The notes below the pieces were generated by a model that was not told the DNA's origin, ran no database searches, and worked only from the letters and a program-made list of their open reading frames with translations. The position numbers and the translations under genes are program-made. Below are positions 26,860 to 62,935 of a stretch of DNA of 64,000 nt, piece after piece (positions within the stretch are counted from its first letter, which is position 1; each line of letters begins with the position of its first letter). The stretch comes from Hymenobacter sp. CRA2 (lineage in GTDB: Bacteria; Bacteroidota; Bacteroidia; Cytophagales; Hymenobacteraceae): NCBI RefSeq assembly GCF_002007105.1, contig NZ_MVBC01000001.1, positions 496,001-560,000 of the forward strand, given 5' to 3'.

Positions 26860-28260
26860 CTAGTTTACGCGGCCCCGGCCACCGCCGCCGTGGCTACCAC
26901 CGCCACCGCCAGAGTTACCGCCGCCGGAGTTGCCACCTCCGCCCCCAAAGTTGCCGCCGCTACGCTCGTAGGAGCGCGACGGGGCTTCGTAGGAACGCGT
27001 GGGCGCCTCGTAGGCGCGGGTAGGCGCTTCGTAGCTCCGCTCGCGGCGGGTGGGCTGCTGGTCTACCTGCGGCGAAGGCGTGCTGGATTCATTGTAGCGC
27101 GACTCGCGGCGCGGCCGCGAGTACTGGGGTTGCGGCTGCGAATATTCGGGCTGCGAAGTGGTCTGGTTGTTCTGGGTTGCGCTACCAAACTGATTCACCC
27201 GGCCATTGCGGCGCTTGGTATTGCCGTAGTCCGTCGTCTGGTCACCGAGCTGCGCGTTGGGCGTAGCGCCTTCCGGCTTGCTGGCGGCAGCTTCGGTGAT
27301 ACGGTACAGGCGGCCCCGACCGGGTTGTGCCCCCTCAGCAGCTTGCTGCGGCGCGGCATCCCCGGTGCGCGTCACGCGCCCGTTCGGCGAGGTGGAGAAC
27401 CCACCGCCTCCGCCACCACCCACCACGGCTCCGTCCGACACGCGCGAACGGTAGCGGCTGGGTGTTTCGACGGCACGGCCGCCGGTATTTTCGTCCACGC
27501 GGGGTCGGCCACCGCCGCCGTTACCCGTCGCGCCCACCACTTCCACACTGCGGTCGGTGCGGTGAGCGTAGTTCACGTTGCGGCCGCCGGAGCGGTAACC
27601 GTCCCAGTTGCCGTAGTAGCCATTGCCCCGGCCGCCACCGTAGAGGCCGGAATAATACCCGTCGTAGAAGCCGTTGTAGTAAGCGCTGCCGTAGCCGTAC
27701 CCATAACCATACCCGTAGGGCCGGTAGCCATAGCCGTACCCATAGGAGGGCCCCCAGCCGCCCCAGCGACCCAGGCCCCAACCGATGTTGATGGAAATGG
27801 ACGATCCGCCGTACCAACTCGGTCCCCAGAACGGGTCAGCCCAGCCGCCGTAGCCGTAGTACGGGCTATACGCCCAGCTCGAGCCGTAGAAAGGTGCGGG
27901 GCTGTACCAGAACGGGTCGTTGTAGCCCCAGTAGTTGTTGTAGCCCATGCCCAGGCCGTTATAGCGCCGGCGGCCCATGTAGGAGTAGTCGTAATCGTCG
28001 CTGTAGTATTCATCGGAGGCGCTGCCTCTGGAACGCTTAGCGGTGCTGTACTCCGGGTTGGCTACTGCATCGGGGTCATCGATGCCAGCTTCATTGGACG
28101 ACTGATCCGCCGTCGAGGCCGTGGCTTGTTCAGAGATACGGTCTTTGGAGGAGTAATAAACGCCATCGGGCTCCGTCATGACGTAGCCGGTGGATGCCAC
28201 GCAGCCGCCAAGCGAGAGCAGGGCGAGGGCCGGCAATAAGGTGGTTGAGATATGTTTCAT
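26860..28260 (-). CDS. Gly/Tyr-rich lipoprotein with tandem peptide repeats
   Basis: 466 residues. The lipobox is SLGGC (Cys20). Residues about 100-235 are extremely rich in Tyr, Gly, Trp and Pro (for example YGYGYGYRPYGYGYGYGYGS). Residues 240-330 are disordered with Gly runs. Near the C-terminus a seven-residue unit repeats (YEAPTRA, YEAPTRS, YEAPSRS) before a Gly/Ser/His tail ending GRGRVN. The composition suggests an extended, adhesive or phase-separating surface protein rather than an enzyme. Both strands have a long open frame here because of the composition, but the lipoprotein signal peptide identifies the minus strand as coding. I do not recognise a family. Confidence 0.75.
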   Translation of the reverse strand: MKHISTTLLPALALLSLGGCVASTGYVMTEPDGVYYSSKDRISEQATASTADQSSNEAGIDDPDAVANPEYSTAKRSRGSASDEYYSDDYDYSYMGRRRYNGLGMGYNNYWGYNDPFWYSPAPFYGSSWAYSPYYGYGGWADPFWGPSWYGGSSISINIGWGLGRWGGWGPSYGYGYGYRPYGYGYGYGYGSAYYNGFYDGYYSGLYGGGRGNGYYGNWDGYRSGGRNVNYAHRTDRSVEVVGATGNGGGGRPRVDENTGGRAVETPSRYRSRVSDGAVVGGGGGGGFSTSPNGRVTRTGDAAPQQAAEGAQPGRGRLYRITEAAASKPEGATPNAQLGDQTTDYGNTKRRNGRVNQFGSATQNNQTTSQPEYSQPQPQYSRPRRESRYNESSTPSPQVDQQPTRRERSYEAPTRAYEAPTRSYEAPSRSYERSGGNFGGGGGNSGGGNSGGGGGSHGGGGRGRVN

Positions 28261-49862: not shown

Positions 49863-50555
49863 ATGAACAAACCCTTCTACCGCCTCGGCGACTGGCGCCG
49901 CAACGTACTGCTGCTGGCCGCCGCAGCCAGCTTGGGCCTGGCCATCCTGCCGGCTTGCTCTTCCGACAACGGCCGCCGCGACACCGACGAAGCCACCGCC
50001 GACTGGAGCGGCGAGAGTTACAGCCAGGGCGTCATCACGGAAATGACGGAGGTGCAGCCCGGCCAGTGGAAAATTACGGCTGAGCGCCCGGCCGGCAAGG
50101 AGGAAGTAGCCGCCATCCTGCACCACTTCGATGGCAAAACGGACACGCTGCAGGGCCAGGCCCTGCAGCGGCAAATGCAGGACTACAGCCGGCGCTACCC
50201 CGAAAACCGCGTGGGCAGCACCGGCCTGATGGACGTGCTCATGTGGAGCAGCATCGGCTACATGGCCGGGCGCTTCCTCACGCCCAACCCCGGCTACTAC
50301 GCCAATCCGGGCGTGATGCAAGGCAACTACGGCTGGCGCCAAAACATTGCCCGCGAGCGGCAAAACGAAGGCCGCGGCTTTTTCGGCCGGGGCTTCAGCG
50401 GCAGCCGCACCTCCCGCAACGCCGGCGTCCAGGAAAGCCCCACATACACGCGCAGCACGTCCTCGTCGCGCAGCACCTACCGCAGTACCGCGCCCAGCGG
50501 CCGCAGCAGTGGCTTTGGCAGCCGCAGCCGCGGGTTTGGTGGCTTCGGCGGCTAA
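49863..50555 (+). CDS. Hypothetical lipoprotein with Ser/Arg/Gly-rich tail
   Basis: 230 residues from ATG 49863; a 40-codon upstream extension is shadow. The signal peptide has a long n-region (MNKPFYRLGDWRRN) and ends ILPAC (Cys32). Residues 50-120 form a small domain (GVITEMTEVQPGQWKITAERP, EVAAILHHFDGKTDTLQG). Residues 140-165 hold TGLMDVLMWSSIGYMAGRF, a possible membrane-associated helix. The last 70 residues are low complexity, rich in Ser, Arg, Gly and Phe. This may be an envelope protein related to those with UPF0323-like tails, but I cannot assign a family. Confidence 0.7.
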   Translation: MNKPFYRLGDWRRNVLLLAAAASLGLAILPACSSDNGRRDTDEATADWSGESYSQGVITEMTEVQPGQWKITAERPAGKEEVAAILHHFDGKTDTLQGQALQRQMQDYSRRYPENRVGSTGLMDVLMWSSIGYMAGRFLTPNPGYYANPGVMQGNYGWRQNIARERQNEGRGFFGRGFSGSRTSRNAGVQESPTYTRSTSSSRSTYRSTAPSGRSSGFGSRSRGFGGFGG

Positions 50556-53492: not shown

Positions 53493-54782
53493 TTAGAAGC
53501 TACCGCGGAACTTGTAGGTCTGGGCGACTTTGTCGATGGCTACCACGTAGGCGGCGATGCGCATCGGCACGTTGTATTTCTGGCTGGTGGCGTACACTTT
53601 CTCGAAGGCGTCGGACATGATGCGGTCGGCGCGCTCGGTCACCATTTCCTCGGTCCACTTGAAGCCCTGGCGGTTCTGCACCCACTCGAAGTAGGACACG
53701 GTCACGCCGCCGGAGTTGGCCAGGATGTCGGGCACCACCATGATGCCTTTCTCGTTGATGATGGGGTCGGCGGAGGCCGAGGTGGGGCCGTTGGCGCCTT
53801 CCACGATCAGGCGAGCCTTGATGTCGTGGGCGTTGTGCTCGGTGATGACGTCCTCCACGGCGGCGGGCACGAGCACGTCGACGGGCAGGGTGAGCAGGTC
53901 GTCGGCGTTGTCCATCAGCACGGCGCCGGTGTAGCCGTCGAGGCGGCCCTTATGGGCATTCTTATAGGCAATGGCTTCGTCGATGTTGATGCCGTTCTCG
54001 TTCCAGTAGGCACCCGATACGTCGCTGACGGCCTTGATCTTAACGCCTTGTTCGCAGAGCAGCTTGGCGGCCCAGGAGCCCACGTTGCCGAAGCCCTGCA
54101 CGGCGGCCGAGGATTCTTCGGGCTTCATGCCCAGCTTGCGCATGGCGGCCAGGGCCGATACCATCACGCCGCGGCCGGTGGCCTCGGTGCGGCCCAGCGA
54201 GCCGCCCATTACCAGGGGCTTGCCCGTCACGACGGCCGGGGTGGTGGCGCCCACGGTCTTGGAGAATTCGTCCATCAGCCAGGCCATTTCGCGCGGGCCG
54301 GTGCCCATGTCGGGAGCCGGGATGTCGCGGTCGGGGCCGAACACGTCCTTCATAGCCAGCGTGTAAGCGCGGGTGAGGCGCTCAATTTCGCCGGCCGACA
54401 TGGTGGTGGGGTCGCAGATGATGCCGCCCTTGGCACCGCCGTAGGGCAGGTCGACCACGGCGCACTTCCACGTCATCCAGGCGGCCAAGGCCTTCACCTC
54501 GTCGAGGTGCACGTTCTTATCGTAGCGGATGCCGCCTTTGGAGGGGCCCAGCACGGTGTTGTGCACCACGCGGTAACCTTCGAACACGCGCACTTCGCCG
54601 TTGTCCATGGTTACGGGGATGTGCACGATAACCTGCTTGTCCGCCGCTTTGAGCACGTTGTAGGTCGCGTCGTCGAGGCCGAGGATGTCGGCGGCCACGT
54701 TGAAGCGCGACATCATCGATTCGAGCGGGTTTTCGCGGTCCACCTTCGGGGCCGGCTCCTTGTAAACCGTGTTAGAGGCCAT
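53493..54782 (-). CDS. gdhA: Glutamate dehydrogenase (Glu/Leu/Phe/Val family)
   Basis: 429 residues from ATG 54782 (MASNTVYKEPAPKVDRENPL). A 35-codon upstream extension has no similarity. Markers are RVVHNTVLGPSKGGIRYDKN, MTWKCAVVDLPYGGAKGGI (catalytic Lys in PYGGAKGG), PAPDMGTGPREMAWLMDEF, GGSLGRTEATGRG and VQGFGNVGSWAAK. It interconverts 2-oxoglutarate plus ammonia and glutamate, in the cytoplasm. Bordered downstream by a hairpin and upstream by a long repeat-bearing gap. Confidence 0.96.
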   Translation of the reverse strand: MASNTVYKEPAPKVDRENPLESMMSRFNVAADILGLDDATYNVLKAADKQVIVHIPVTMDNGEVRVFEGYRVVHNTVLGPSKGGIRYDKNVHLDEVKALAAWMTWKCAVVDLPYGGAKGGIICDPTTMSAGEIERLTRAYTLAMKDVFGPDRDIPAPDMGTGPREMAWLMDEFSKTVGATTPAVVTGKPLVMGGSLGRTEATGRGVMVSALAAMRKLGMKPEESSAAVQGFGNVGSWAAKLLCEQGVKIKAVSDVSGAYWNENGINIDEAIAYKNAHKGRLDGYTGAVLMDNADDLLTLPVDVLVPAAVEDVITEHNAHDIKARLIVEGANGPTSASADPIINEKGIMVVPDILANSGGVTVSYFEWVQNRQGFKWTEEMVTERADRIMSDAFEKVYATSQKYNVPMRIAAYVVAIDKVAQTYKFRGSF

Positions 54783-54976
54783 GCTGTTGGTCGGGTAAAA
54801 GGGATGGGGAATTGTGGGGGAATGCAGAAACAGCGCCGCCCGAAGCCAGCCGAGCAGCCGGACCAGCGGGCGTAAAAAGCGCGCCAAAGGTACTAGGATT
54901 CCCCAATACGGATATATACGGCTTACAGTCGTTAGGCAACGGCTAAAGTTGGGGTTTCAGCCGGTATAGTGGCGCC
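54783..54976. other. Upstream region of gdhA, no gene seen
   Basis: This stretch before the 21-bp repeat array includes an exact TAnnTTTG box on the minus strand at 54885-54892 (TACCTTTG), about 103 bases before the gdhA start. I see no well-spaced -33 element and no coding region. Confidence 0.5.
54885..54892 (-). promoter_or_regulatory. Candidate -7 box for gdhA
   Basis: On the minus strand this reads TACCTTTG, matching TAnnTTTG exactly. The upstream TTG expected 17-23 bases earlier is not present, so the call is tentative. Confidence 0.4.
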
Positions 54977-55228
54977 GACGAAGCGGTAGTTATCGTCGGA
55001 GAGCTGGTAGTTGGTGCCGGCGAAGTGGTAGTTAGCCGCGGCGAAGTGGTAGTTGGCCTCGGCGAAGCGGTAGTTGAATGCGACGAGACGGTAGTTACTG
55101 GCGGCGAGGTGGTAGAGCCCTGCGGCGAGGTGGTAGGAGGTGTCGACGAGCTGGTGGAGACGATCGGCGAGCCGGTGGGAAGGGTCGGTGAGGCGGTGGG
55201 AAGGTGCGGAAGAGCGGTGGAGGCGGGC
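54977..55228. repeat. Twelve-unit 21-bp tandem repeat array
   Basis: Twelve consecutive units of exactly 21 bases, for example GGCGAAGTGGTAGTTAGCCGC and the next unit GGCGAAGTGGTAGTTGGCCTC. The first half of each unit is more conserved than the second. No spacer differs in length, so all reading frames have a seven-residue period. In the plus frame most units begin (G/D)E-x-V, with gaa/gag and gta/gtg alternating. No plausible start codon lies upstream of the array in that frame. The minus-strand frame reads TTSP-type repeats with an ATG start. I regard it as non-coding until shown otherwise. It lies in the gap between gdhA and cdsA. Confidence 0.8.
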
Positions 55229-55357: not shown

Positions 55358-56299
55358 CTACGTGCCGAACAGCAGTTGCAGGACTACCAGCACGGGCACG
55401 ACGAAGAGAAAGGCATCGAAGCGGTCGAGCAGGCCGCCGTGGCCGGGCATGATGCGGCCGGAATCCTTCACTCCCACGCTACGCTTGAGCATGGATTCGG
55501 CTAAGTCTCCGAGCACGCCGAAGACGGATACGACAAGGGCTGCTACCAAGCGGGTGATGAGGGGCATTTCGGGAATGAGGTAGCCCAGGGCCCAGCCCAC
55601 GGCCAGGGTGAGCAGGGTGCCGCCGATCCAGCCTTCCCAGGTTTTGCCGGGCGAGATGCTCAGGGCAAGCTTGTTACGGCCGAAGTTTTTGCCGGCAATG
55701 TAGGCCCCGGTATCGGCGGCCCAGACCATGAACAGCAGGCCGAAGATGCGGCGGTAGTCGTAGCCCTCGGGGCCGAAGGCCAGCACGTTGAGCCCGCTCA
55801 TGGGCAGGGTGACGTAGAACAAGCCGAGCAGGGCCACGCCGACGTTGGGGAAGGGCGAAAAGGGCTGCTTCTCGCGCGGCCACCAGTACATTTCGCGCAG
55901 CAGCAGGATGATGGGCGCTAGGAAGCAGACCGCCAGGAATACCGGAATATAGGACCAAGCCAGCTCTTGCATATCCCGTGAACCCGGCGCCCGATGAGCA
56001 TCTATCCGAATCAGGAACAAGCTGAAAAAGAGTACCAGGCTCATTACAACCCCAATCACAGCCGCCGGCTTGTAGTTCAGCTCCTTCATCATGCGGTAGA
56101 ACTCCCACAGCATGCGGGCCTGCACCAGCCCGAAGAACAGGCCGAACGTCCAGCCACTATACCAGATAGAGCCCAGCAGCAGCACCGCGCCGACGACGCC
56201 GGAAATGATGCGCTGCCACATATTGGACATGCCCGGCGGCTTCTTCTGGGCGTCGGCGGATTCGGTGGCGGCGGGAGGCGGAGTAGCGGGCGTAGTCAA
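55358..56299 (-). CDS. cdsA: Phosphatidate cytidylyltransferase
   Basis: 313 residues. A Thr/Pro/Ala-rich cytoplasmic leader precedes about seven membrane segments. The signature of the family is near the C-terminus: SMLKRSVGVKDSGRIMPGHG followed by GLLDRFDA. Before it comes FGRNKLALSISPGKTWEGWIGG, also typical. It makes CDP-diacylglycerol from CTP and phosphatidic acid, the precursor of all phospholipids. It lies 46 bases downstream of the CPBP protease gene and is likely co-transcribed with it. Confidence 0.96.
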   Translation of the reverse strand: MTTPATPPPAATESADAQKKPPGMSNMWQRIISGVVGAVLLLGSIWYSGWTFGLFFGLVQARMLWEFYRMMKELNYKPAAVIGVVMSLVLFFSLFLIRIDAHRAPGSRDMQELAWSYIPVFLAVCFLAPIILLLREMYWWPREKQPFSPFPNVGVALLGLFYVTLPMSGLNVLAFGPEGYDYRRIFGLLFMVWAADTGAYIAGKNFGRNKLALSISPGKTWEGWIGGTLLTLAVGWALGYLIPEMPLITRLVAALVVSVFGVLGDLAESMLKRSVGVKDSGRIMPGHGGLLDRFDAFLFVVPVLVVLQLLFGT

Positions 56300-61966: not shown

Positions 61967-62935
61967 ATGCCTTCCACTCCTGCTTCCGCCCCCGCTGCCG
62001 CCGCAGCTCCCTCCTCGCCTACCGTGGCCGGCCCGCCCCCGCACCAGCCCACGCCGCTTTCGGCCTGGGTACTGCTCATCGTGCTGGCCTCCATCTGGGG
62101 CACGTCGTTTATCCTGATGAAGAAGGGTTTGGTGGTGTTTTCGGCGCTGGAGCTAGGCGCTACTCGCGTCACGGTGGCCTCGCTGCTGCTGCTGCCCTTT
62201 GCGCTGCGCCATGTGCGCCGGGTGGAGCGCAGCCGCTTCAAGTGGCTGCTGCTGAGCGGTGTGGTGGGCACGCTGATTCCGGCTTTCCTCTTCGCCTACG
62301 CCGAAACCAAACTGGCCTCGGGCCTGGCCGGCGTGCTCAACGCGCTGACGGTGGTGTTCACGCTGCTGGTGGGTGCGATGTTTTTTGGGCAGCGCATCAC
62401 CTGGCTGCGGGCCCTGGGCATTGGCGCCGGCCTGCTGGGCACCATTGTCCTGATGGGCCTGGGCGGCAGCGGCGGCGAGGCTACCCCCTCCGGTGAAGGC
62501 AACGCTTGGTACGGGCTCTACATCGTGCTGGCCACGCTGGGCTACGGCCTGAGCGTCAACATCATTAAGCATCACTTCCACGGCATTCCGTCGGTGGCCG
62601 TGACGGGGCTGCTGCTCATGCTCATCGGCGGGCCGGCTGCGGCCTACCTGCTGCTCGGCACCGATTTTATCTACAAGCTGCAGCACGTGCCCGGTGCTTG
62701 GACGGCCTTCGGCTACATTGCCCTGCTGGCCACCATGAGCACGGCAGTGGCTATGGTCTTGTTCAACAAGCTCATCCAGCAGTCGACGGCGCTGTTTGCC
62801 GCTTCCAATACCTACCTGGTGCCCATTATGGCGTTGGCCTGGGGCCTGCTCGATGGCGAAATAATCAACGCGTGGCACCTGCTGGGCATGAGCATCATCC
62901 TGCTGAGCGTGTTCATCATCAACCGGGCTAAATAA
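61967..62935 (+). CDS. DMT-superfamily exporter (EamA family)
   Basis: 322 residues from ATG 61967. A Pro/Ala-rich leader of 30 residues precedes ten membrane segments in two EamA repeats (LASIWGTSFILMKKG in the first, YGLYIVLATLGYGLSVNIIKHHF in the second). AETKLASGLAGVLNALTVVFTLLVG and IGGPAAAYL fit the family. These are drug/metabolite or amino-acid exporters of the inner membrane. The substrate is unknown. The leader has no family similarity and the true start may be a little downstream. Confidence 0.9.
   Translation: MPSTPASAPAAAAAPSSPTVAGPPPHQPTPLSAWVLLIVLASIWGTSFILMKKGLVVFSALELGATRVTVASLLLLPFALRHVRRVERSRFKWLLLSGVVGTLIPAFLFAYAETKLASGLAGVLNALTVVFTLLVGAMFFGQRITWLRALGIGAGLLGTIVLMGLGGSGGEATPSGEGNAWYGLYIVLATLGYGLSVNIIKHHFHGIPSVAVTGLLLMLIGGPAAAYLLLGTDFIYKLQHVPGAWTAFGYIALLATMSTAVAMVLFNKLIQQSTALFAASNTYLVPIMALAWGLLDGEIINAWHLLGMSIILLSVFIINRAK

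Follow-up and report, generated by a model that had tools for sequence, protein, structure and literature searches.

A rigid 21-bp direct-repeat array beside gdhA in Hymenobacter sp. CRA2 and its link to an unstudied gene family of Bacteroidota

What does a run of short, evenly spaced direct repeats do in the gap between gdhA and cdsA of Hymenobacter sp. CRA2? The window analysed here is a stretch of 64,000 nucleotides (contig NZ_MVBC01000001.1, positions 496,001 to 560,000). The initial annotation described in this gap a regular array of 12 units of 21 bp without indels, and offered three meanings for it: a variable-number locus, a bound DNA site or a degraded repeat protein. The array is confirmed. 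Read in register, it consists of 12 units of exactly 21 bp and lies one base off the position first given (Table 1); Tandem Repeats Finder calls it at 54970-55220 with a 21-bp period and no or few indels. The core pattern of the unit matches the window 49 times, 11 of them inside the array, while shuffling leads one to expect 5.7 matches window-wide. Across the genome a two-unit pattern gives 8+24 matches, against 0+0 for the reversed control. The nearest named relatives of the cdsA product are from Hymenobacter species (72-75% identity). Other short 21-bp repeats are called in the window at 26966-27034, 27102-27155, 50500-50539 and 62878-62920.

Table 1 Features of the gdhA-cdsA region, in window coordinates
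Feature	Coordinates	Strand	Remarks
gdhA, Glu/Leu/Phe/Val dehydrogenase	53493-54782	-	Pfam PF00208 and PF02812; array lies upstream of gdhA
Putative gdhA promoter stretch, TATTGGGGAATCCTAGTACCTTTGGCGCG-like	54880-54909	-	assigned by eye; ~84 bp from array
Solo 21-bp array, 12 units, consensus CGGCGARGYGGTAGTTNNNNN	54976-55227	+	read in register
cdsA, CTP_transf_1 family	55358-56299	-	Pfam PF01148; 3' end faces array

The promoter-like stretch upstream of gdhA is kept, as judged by eye, in several relatives both with and without the array. Its element TACCTTTG fits TAnnTTTG, which we take to be the Bacteroidota -7 box, and the putative promoter role follows from this consensus.

An equally oriented array occupies the gap between gdhA and cdsA in H. 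edaphi (12 units), H. gummosus (14) and Hymenobacter sp. 15J16-1T3B (10); in H. jeollabukensis it has shrunk to about 4 units. The number of units thus differs between the five species at one site, which makes this a variable-number locus, as had been proposed. (From identical units, genome G001 is taken as H. edaphi and G004 as H. jeollabukensis.) No array was seen in the gap sequences read from four other genomes of the genus (G003, G005, G006 and G007). The unit sequence at this site varies by species, CTGCGAGGCGGTAGTTGATAG in H. edaphi being one example; pitch and location are retained as the units are replaced. The initial annotation would have called the array a neutral minisatellite had it proved absent or scrambled in sister strains with no constraint, and on this the relatives give a mixed answer: several of them lack the array, and in those that have it the units turn over but pitch, core and orientation persist.

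The genome of CRA2 holds four arrays with a common unit, the one in the window and one each on contigs C9, C22 and C42. Their common consensus is CGGCGARGYGGTAGTT followed by five loose bases. Unit positions 1-3, 5-6 and 10-14 have homozygosities of 0.88-1.0 over the four arrays, while positions 4, 7-9 and 15-21 mostly lie at 0.29-0.61 (position 16 is at 0.80), in agreement with the earlier remark that the two halves of the unit diverge unequally. This profile of tight and loose columns is common to the four arrays (mean correlation 0.77, reached in 0 of 5000 column shuffles).

The array on C9 lies upstream of a gene for a protein of 313 amino acids (positions 643-1581 of C9), which we label tyqq as its product starts with MKTYQQN. 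The protein has no match beyond chance in Pfam, PHROGs, PADLOC or NCBIfam and none among PDB sequences, and 19 diverse relatives belong to no Pfam or NCBIfam family, with stray weak matches only. No gene of this family was found in the window by an HMM search of six frames. The gene and its upstream array are also present in H. edaphi, H. jeollabukensis and another genus of the bacterial family (G099). We searched for relatives of tyqq by protein similarity alone and looked for arrays afterwards. The gene is present in 19 of 204 genomes of the bacterial family, at 22 loci; a 21-bp array precedes it at 20 of them, and the unit is often wholly different from one locus to another. Such an array also precedes all three remote relatives (25-27% identity). 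A phylum-wide draw found members in 15 of 395 genomes. It gave 31 hits, of which 30 had a locus and the remaining one is left out of the counts. Among the 29 loci read, a 21-bp array was found in 23, a weak 20-bp period in one and no array in five; L282, which is among the 29, duplicates a locus from the earlier counts. CRA2 itself has a second, distant member on contig C33 (L302) with its own, unrelated array. The encoded proteins have 230-320 amino acids; they are not consistently basic (median pI 6.8, with 13 of 45 below 6), and no DNA-binding domain was recognised in them. The 313-residue members have an extra conserved C-terminal part (about residues 225-313 of tyqq at L009), which differs from the C-terminal part of the two members in G349 (L291 and L303).

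Taken over Bacteroidota, a 21-bp array lies within about 0.65 kb upstream of the tyqq-family gene at 45 of 53 distinct loci, and at 44 of 47 when only genes with an intact N-terminus are considered. Five of the eight loci without such an array lack the N-terminus (L271, L290, L293, L295 and L304), two show periods of about 20 bp (L269 and L297), and one has an intact gene and no array (L294). The best period among 14-35 bp is 21 in 43 of the 45 loci measured, a set that omits L269 (intact N-terminus; period about 20/61), L294 and six loci without an intact N-terminus (the five above and L270); L297, with its weak 20-bp period, is counted in this measurement and dropped from the statistics on 44 arrays. 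The array of L284 lies beyond the 600 bp upstream span measured and was found separately. Over these 45 loci the mean period-21 score upstream of the gene is 0.71, while the best period that is not a multiple of 7 scores 0.41; downstream of the gene the period-21 score has a mean of 0.36 and a maximum of 0.44. As a control, the gap upstream of the SSF-transporter gene scores 0.32-0.43 in 28 of 28 genomes without tyqq. Gene-linked arrays have a median of 11 units and lie a median of 127 bp from the start codon. TAnnTTTG occurs between array and start codon in 4 of 44 cases, no excess over the 2.9 expected. No neighbouring gene is common to most loci and there is no operon partner; the largest clusters of neighbours are antisense frames of the tyqq-family gene itself. 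Linked in this way to one unstudied gene family, the array may serve the encoded protein as a private DNA address.

The pitch of the arrays is rigid. With array ends set in 21-bp register and steps sought up to 42 bp past each end, so that indels farther out could be missed, 408 of the 415 core-to-core steps no longer than 30 bp measure exactly 21 bp. Yet neighbouring units diverge: averaged over 459 pairs, 7.06 of the 21 positions are different, 4.41 of them within the loose spacer of 10 bp. Conserved columns cluster within arrays (combined Z 10.4; above 1.64 individually in 20 of 45). A spacer that is free in sequence and fixed in length is what a constraint of helical phase predicts; a coding repeat would allow 18 or 24 bp as well. 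In 14 of 44 arrays the strongest offset is a sub-period of 7 bp, compared with 4.8 (maximum 11) on shuffling. The window array has no 7-bp excess (lag-7 identity 0.28). As the signal, first noticed in arrays from other genera, is weak overall and absent from the window array, we do not claim a heptamer origin as a general rule. Pure 7-bp repeats, (CTGGTAG)n and (TTGGTTG)n, were found only at L214 (2029-2091) and, touching a 21-bp array, at L209 (2290-2360 and 3840-3910); they are possibly a birth stage of 21-bp arrays.

The array and the protein diverge together. Unit sequences are unrelated between distant members of the family, and over the 44 gene-linked arrays the similarity of arrays follows that of proteins (Mantel r 0.55, reached in 0 of 2000 permutations). 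The mean array z rises from 0.05 at 20-25% protein identity to 4.5 at 70-85% and 8.5 above 85%. With one array reverse-complemented, z never exceeds 3 above 50% protein identity, which argues that the orientation of the array to the gene is kept. Within single genomes, divergent paralogs have unrelated arrays, and near-identical ones (in G260 and G488) have arrays in common. Shared descent accounts for part of this tracking; co-evolution and co-inheritance are not told apart by the Mantel test. G488 has seven family hits, six of which were read (L284, L296, L305, L308, L309 and L310), with several unrelated array types among them.

The window array has the exact pitch of the class (at least six units of 21 bp) and no adjacent tyqq-type gene, and is thus a solo array. 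Among the 44 gene-linked arrays the one most similar to it is that on C9 of its own genome (similarity 0.90, rank 1 of 44); the array on C33 reaches 0.25. Where the genome also has a readable gene-linked array, 13 solo arrays were ranked in this way; for 9 of them the local array came first of the 44. The others are matched better elsewhere, with their own array ranking 6th (the gdhA array of G001), 3rd (the sss array of G004), 4th (G149) and 9th or 10th, depending on the units taken (the sss array of G016). In G139 the gene-linked and the transporter array have both changed to a TGCAGG core. A solo array of H. daecheongensis (L087, 403-664), with the core CATGTCAC, is nearly identical (similarity 0.96) to the one that accompanies the remote-type gene in G028 (L229). 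H. edaphi has a second, decayed 21-bp array (L204, 3303-3497; core GCAGGA) about 0.8 kb from its tyqq array.

Solo arrays at the gdhA and SSF-transporter sites recur in several species with their orientation kept. The one at the transporter is present in 6 of 11 genomes with an intact tyqq-type gene, in 1 of 3 with a broken or truncated gene and in 0 of 28 without it; the positives are confined to two genera, so these cases are not independent. A first set (3/3 vs 0/26) had placed the transporter array in every gene-bearing genome, a rule that the larger test, with only 6/11, did not bear out. In G083, which lacks the 313-residue gene, about three units are kept where G161 has ten; G002 lacks the gene too, yet keeps a ragged gdhA array (adjacent-unit identity 0.53). 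One solo array of G099 (b) lies between convergent genes, where control of a promoter is unlikely.

Given the linkage, the rigid 21-bp pitch, a core with a free spacer, the joint divergence of array and protein and the units common to solo and local gene-linked arrays, we propose a unit of two parts, an upstream 21-bp direct-repeat array and a tyqq-type gene, with the window array as a solo copy that would hold the address only. The tyqq-type protein would bind one site in each 21-bp unit. Since 21 bp make two helical turns, the sites would lie on one face of the DNA, where adjacent ones could be occupied next to each other. By binding its own array the protein would control its own gene, and at gdhA, hemL and the SSF transporter it would act through the solo arrays that lie upstream of them. 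We give even odds (about 0.5) to the reading that the protein binds a private array, with a site for every two helical turns, both at its own gene and at a few others. Among the meanings first offered, a bound DNA site is the best supported, by pitch, linkage and specificity, from which we infer the binding itself. Counted against it are the lack of a recognised DNA-binding domain, of a consistent basic charge and of a shared promoter motif between array and start codon; the 4 of 13 solo arrays that match other genomes better; the 5 of 11 gene-bearing genomes without a transporter array; the array between convergent genes; the arrayless L294; and the periods of about 20 bp at L269 and L297. 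More tentatively, such self-addressed systems may occur throughout Bacteroidota, each with a private 21-bp address before its own gene that is copied to chosen promoters. Address and protein would change together, so that paralogs such as the seven hits of G488 avoid cross-reaction, and the window array would be one such address at gdhA.

A mobile or selfish cassette is a serious rival, as array and gene travel as a unit that ends shortly past the stop codon, with no conserved neighbour. Array and gene would move and multiply together, with the array as an end or as a site of the protein's action, and solo arrays would be remnants or substrates without a regulatory role. Duplicate pairs in G260 and in G488 share just the array and the gene, to about 20-85 bp past the stop, between unrelated flanks, and L227 and L229, from two genomes, share about that span only. 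The lack of a neighbour common to most loci, the presence of the gene in 19 of 204 genomes of the bacterial family and an array that precedes a decayed gene copy in G163 also speak for it; in that genome (L212) the array at 2020-2250 is followed at ~2560-2950 by a tyqq copy with a frameshift and an internal loss. Against it, no transposase or nuclease family is matched, and no plasmid or phage relative came up by the queries tried or in one viral-contig scan. The solo arrays stay at fixed sites (gdhA, SSF transporter) in several species with orientation kept, unlike the products of active insertion. On balance we hold the cassette to be the less likely account; cassette and binding could both hold.

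That the array acts as RNA, a transcribed leader or a small RNA with repeated protein-binding motifs, would suit its place upstream of the gene, its fixed orientation among related members and its distance from the start codon, but is improbable. The window array folds no better than shuffles on either strand (z 0.58 and -0.33), a 22-sequence alignment gives no consensus structure, no Rfam match was found in five loci, and single-stranded RNA offers no obvious cause for a pitch fixed at 21 bp.

Still less room is left for a neutral minisatellite, arisen by slippage and kept by its own mutation dynamics only. The range from about 4 to 14 units at the gdhA site, the young identical copies in L009 and L287, the 7-bp sub-period and the loss or decay of the array in relatives are what one would expect of it, but phylum-wide linkage to one gene family and tracking of protein similarity are not. 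Moreover, at a neutral rate of one indel in 10-20 changes, and with about one third of positions differing between neighbours, well over 100 steps other than 21 bp would be expected; just 7 of 415 are seen.

A heptad-repeat peptide of seven codons per unit, for which long open frames run through the window array on both strands, is very improbable, and stop codons together with conserved wobble positions lead us to reject a protein-coding repeat. Stops interrupt every sense frame in 16 of the 44 related gene-linked arrays, and in 4 no frame at all stays open; the gdhA arrays of sister species have stops in the frame concerned, and neither ORF through the window array has a Pfam match. The degraded repeat protein of the initial annotation is likewise not supported. 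The (G/D)E-x-V reading given there, with variation at synonymous positions, stood in part: wobble positions 4 and 7 vary, but positions 1, 10, 13 and 16 are conserved in this genome at 0.80-0.96.

If binding to private arrays is right, "hypothetical proteins" across a phylum gain a first testable function, and intergenic repeats that are easily dismissed as minisatellites gain a partner. As protein and repeat diverge together at a constant 21 bp, the family would be a natural series for reading shifts in DNA specificity; it would also let one ask how new regulatory addresses arise at unrelated genes, with the multi-array genome G488 as a natural test of cross-reaction.

Several known systems resemble the gene-array pair in part. 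CRISPR arrays, in which identical repeats alternate with unique spacers beside cas genes, differ: here the units are 21 bp in total with a degenerate core, five loci gave no Rfam match, and no neighbours are common. REP sequences accompany the genes of RAYT transposases and also occur solo elsewhere in the genome. The association of one gene with a repeat that has solo copies is alike; tyqq-linked units, however, are direct and not palindromic, form no inverted structure and come with no match to a transposase (Y1) family. Arrays of short direct repeats also precede the regulator gene, and are occupied side by side, in the omega system with the heptad arrays of pSM19035 and in ParR-parC centromeres; omega has further arrays at other promoters. 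Direct-repeat arrays before the own gene, further arrays elsewhere and, in some arrays, a 7-bp sub-period are shared with them; the pitch of 21 bp is not, and there is neither a ribbon-helix-helix match nor a neighbour common to the loci such as a partition ATPase. In plasmid iterons, direct repeats that each span about two helical turns lie before an adjacent rep gene, whose protein binds them. The tyqq arrays are similar in repeat length and in their place upstream of a partner gene, with binding in our case inferred, and unlike iterons they are chromosomal, have solo copies at other genes and vary in about half of the unit; no Rep initiator lies beside the repeats, and no such family (Pfam, NCBIfam) was found in tyqq or its 19 diverse relatives. 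STRR-type repeats are heptamer direct repeats, and the window array is not made of exact tandem 7-mers. The TAACTGA heptamer repeats of Beggiatoaceae, Cyanobacteria and five Bacteroidetes are intergenic, lie upstream of genes and were proposed as protein sites (PMC4679880). Intergenic tandem repeats upstream of genes in some Bacteroidetes are thus common to both; those repeats are exact 7-mers for which we found no partner gene family described, whereas ours are degenerate 21-bp units tied to one gene family. Since no description of the gene-array pair was found in open-licence literature, and those defining features of the known systems that were looked for were absent, we regard the pair as new and the array between gdhA and cdsA as a solo member of it.
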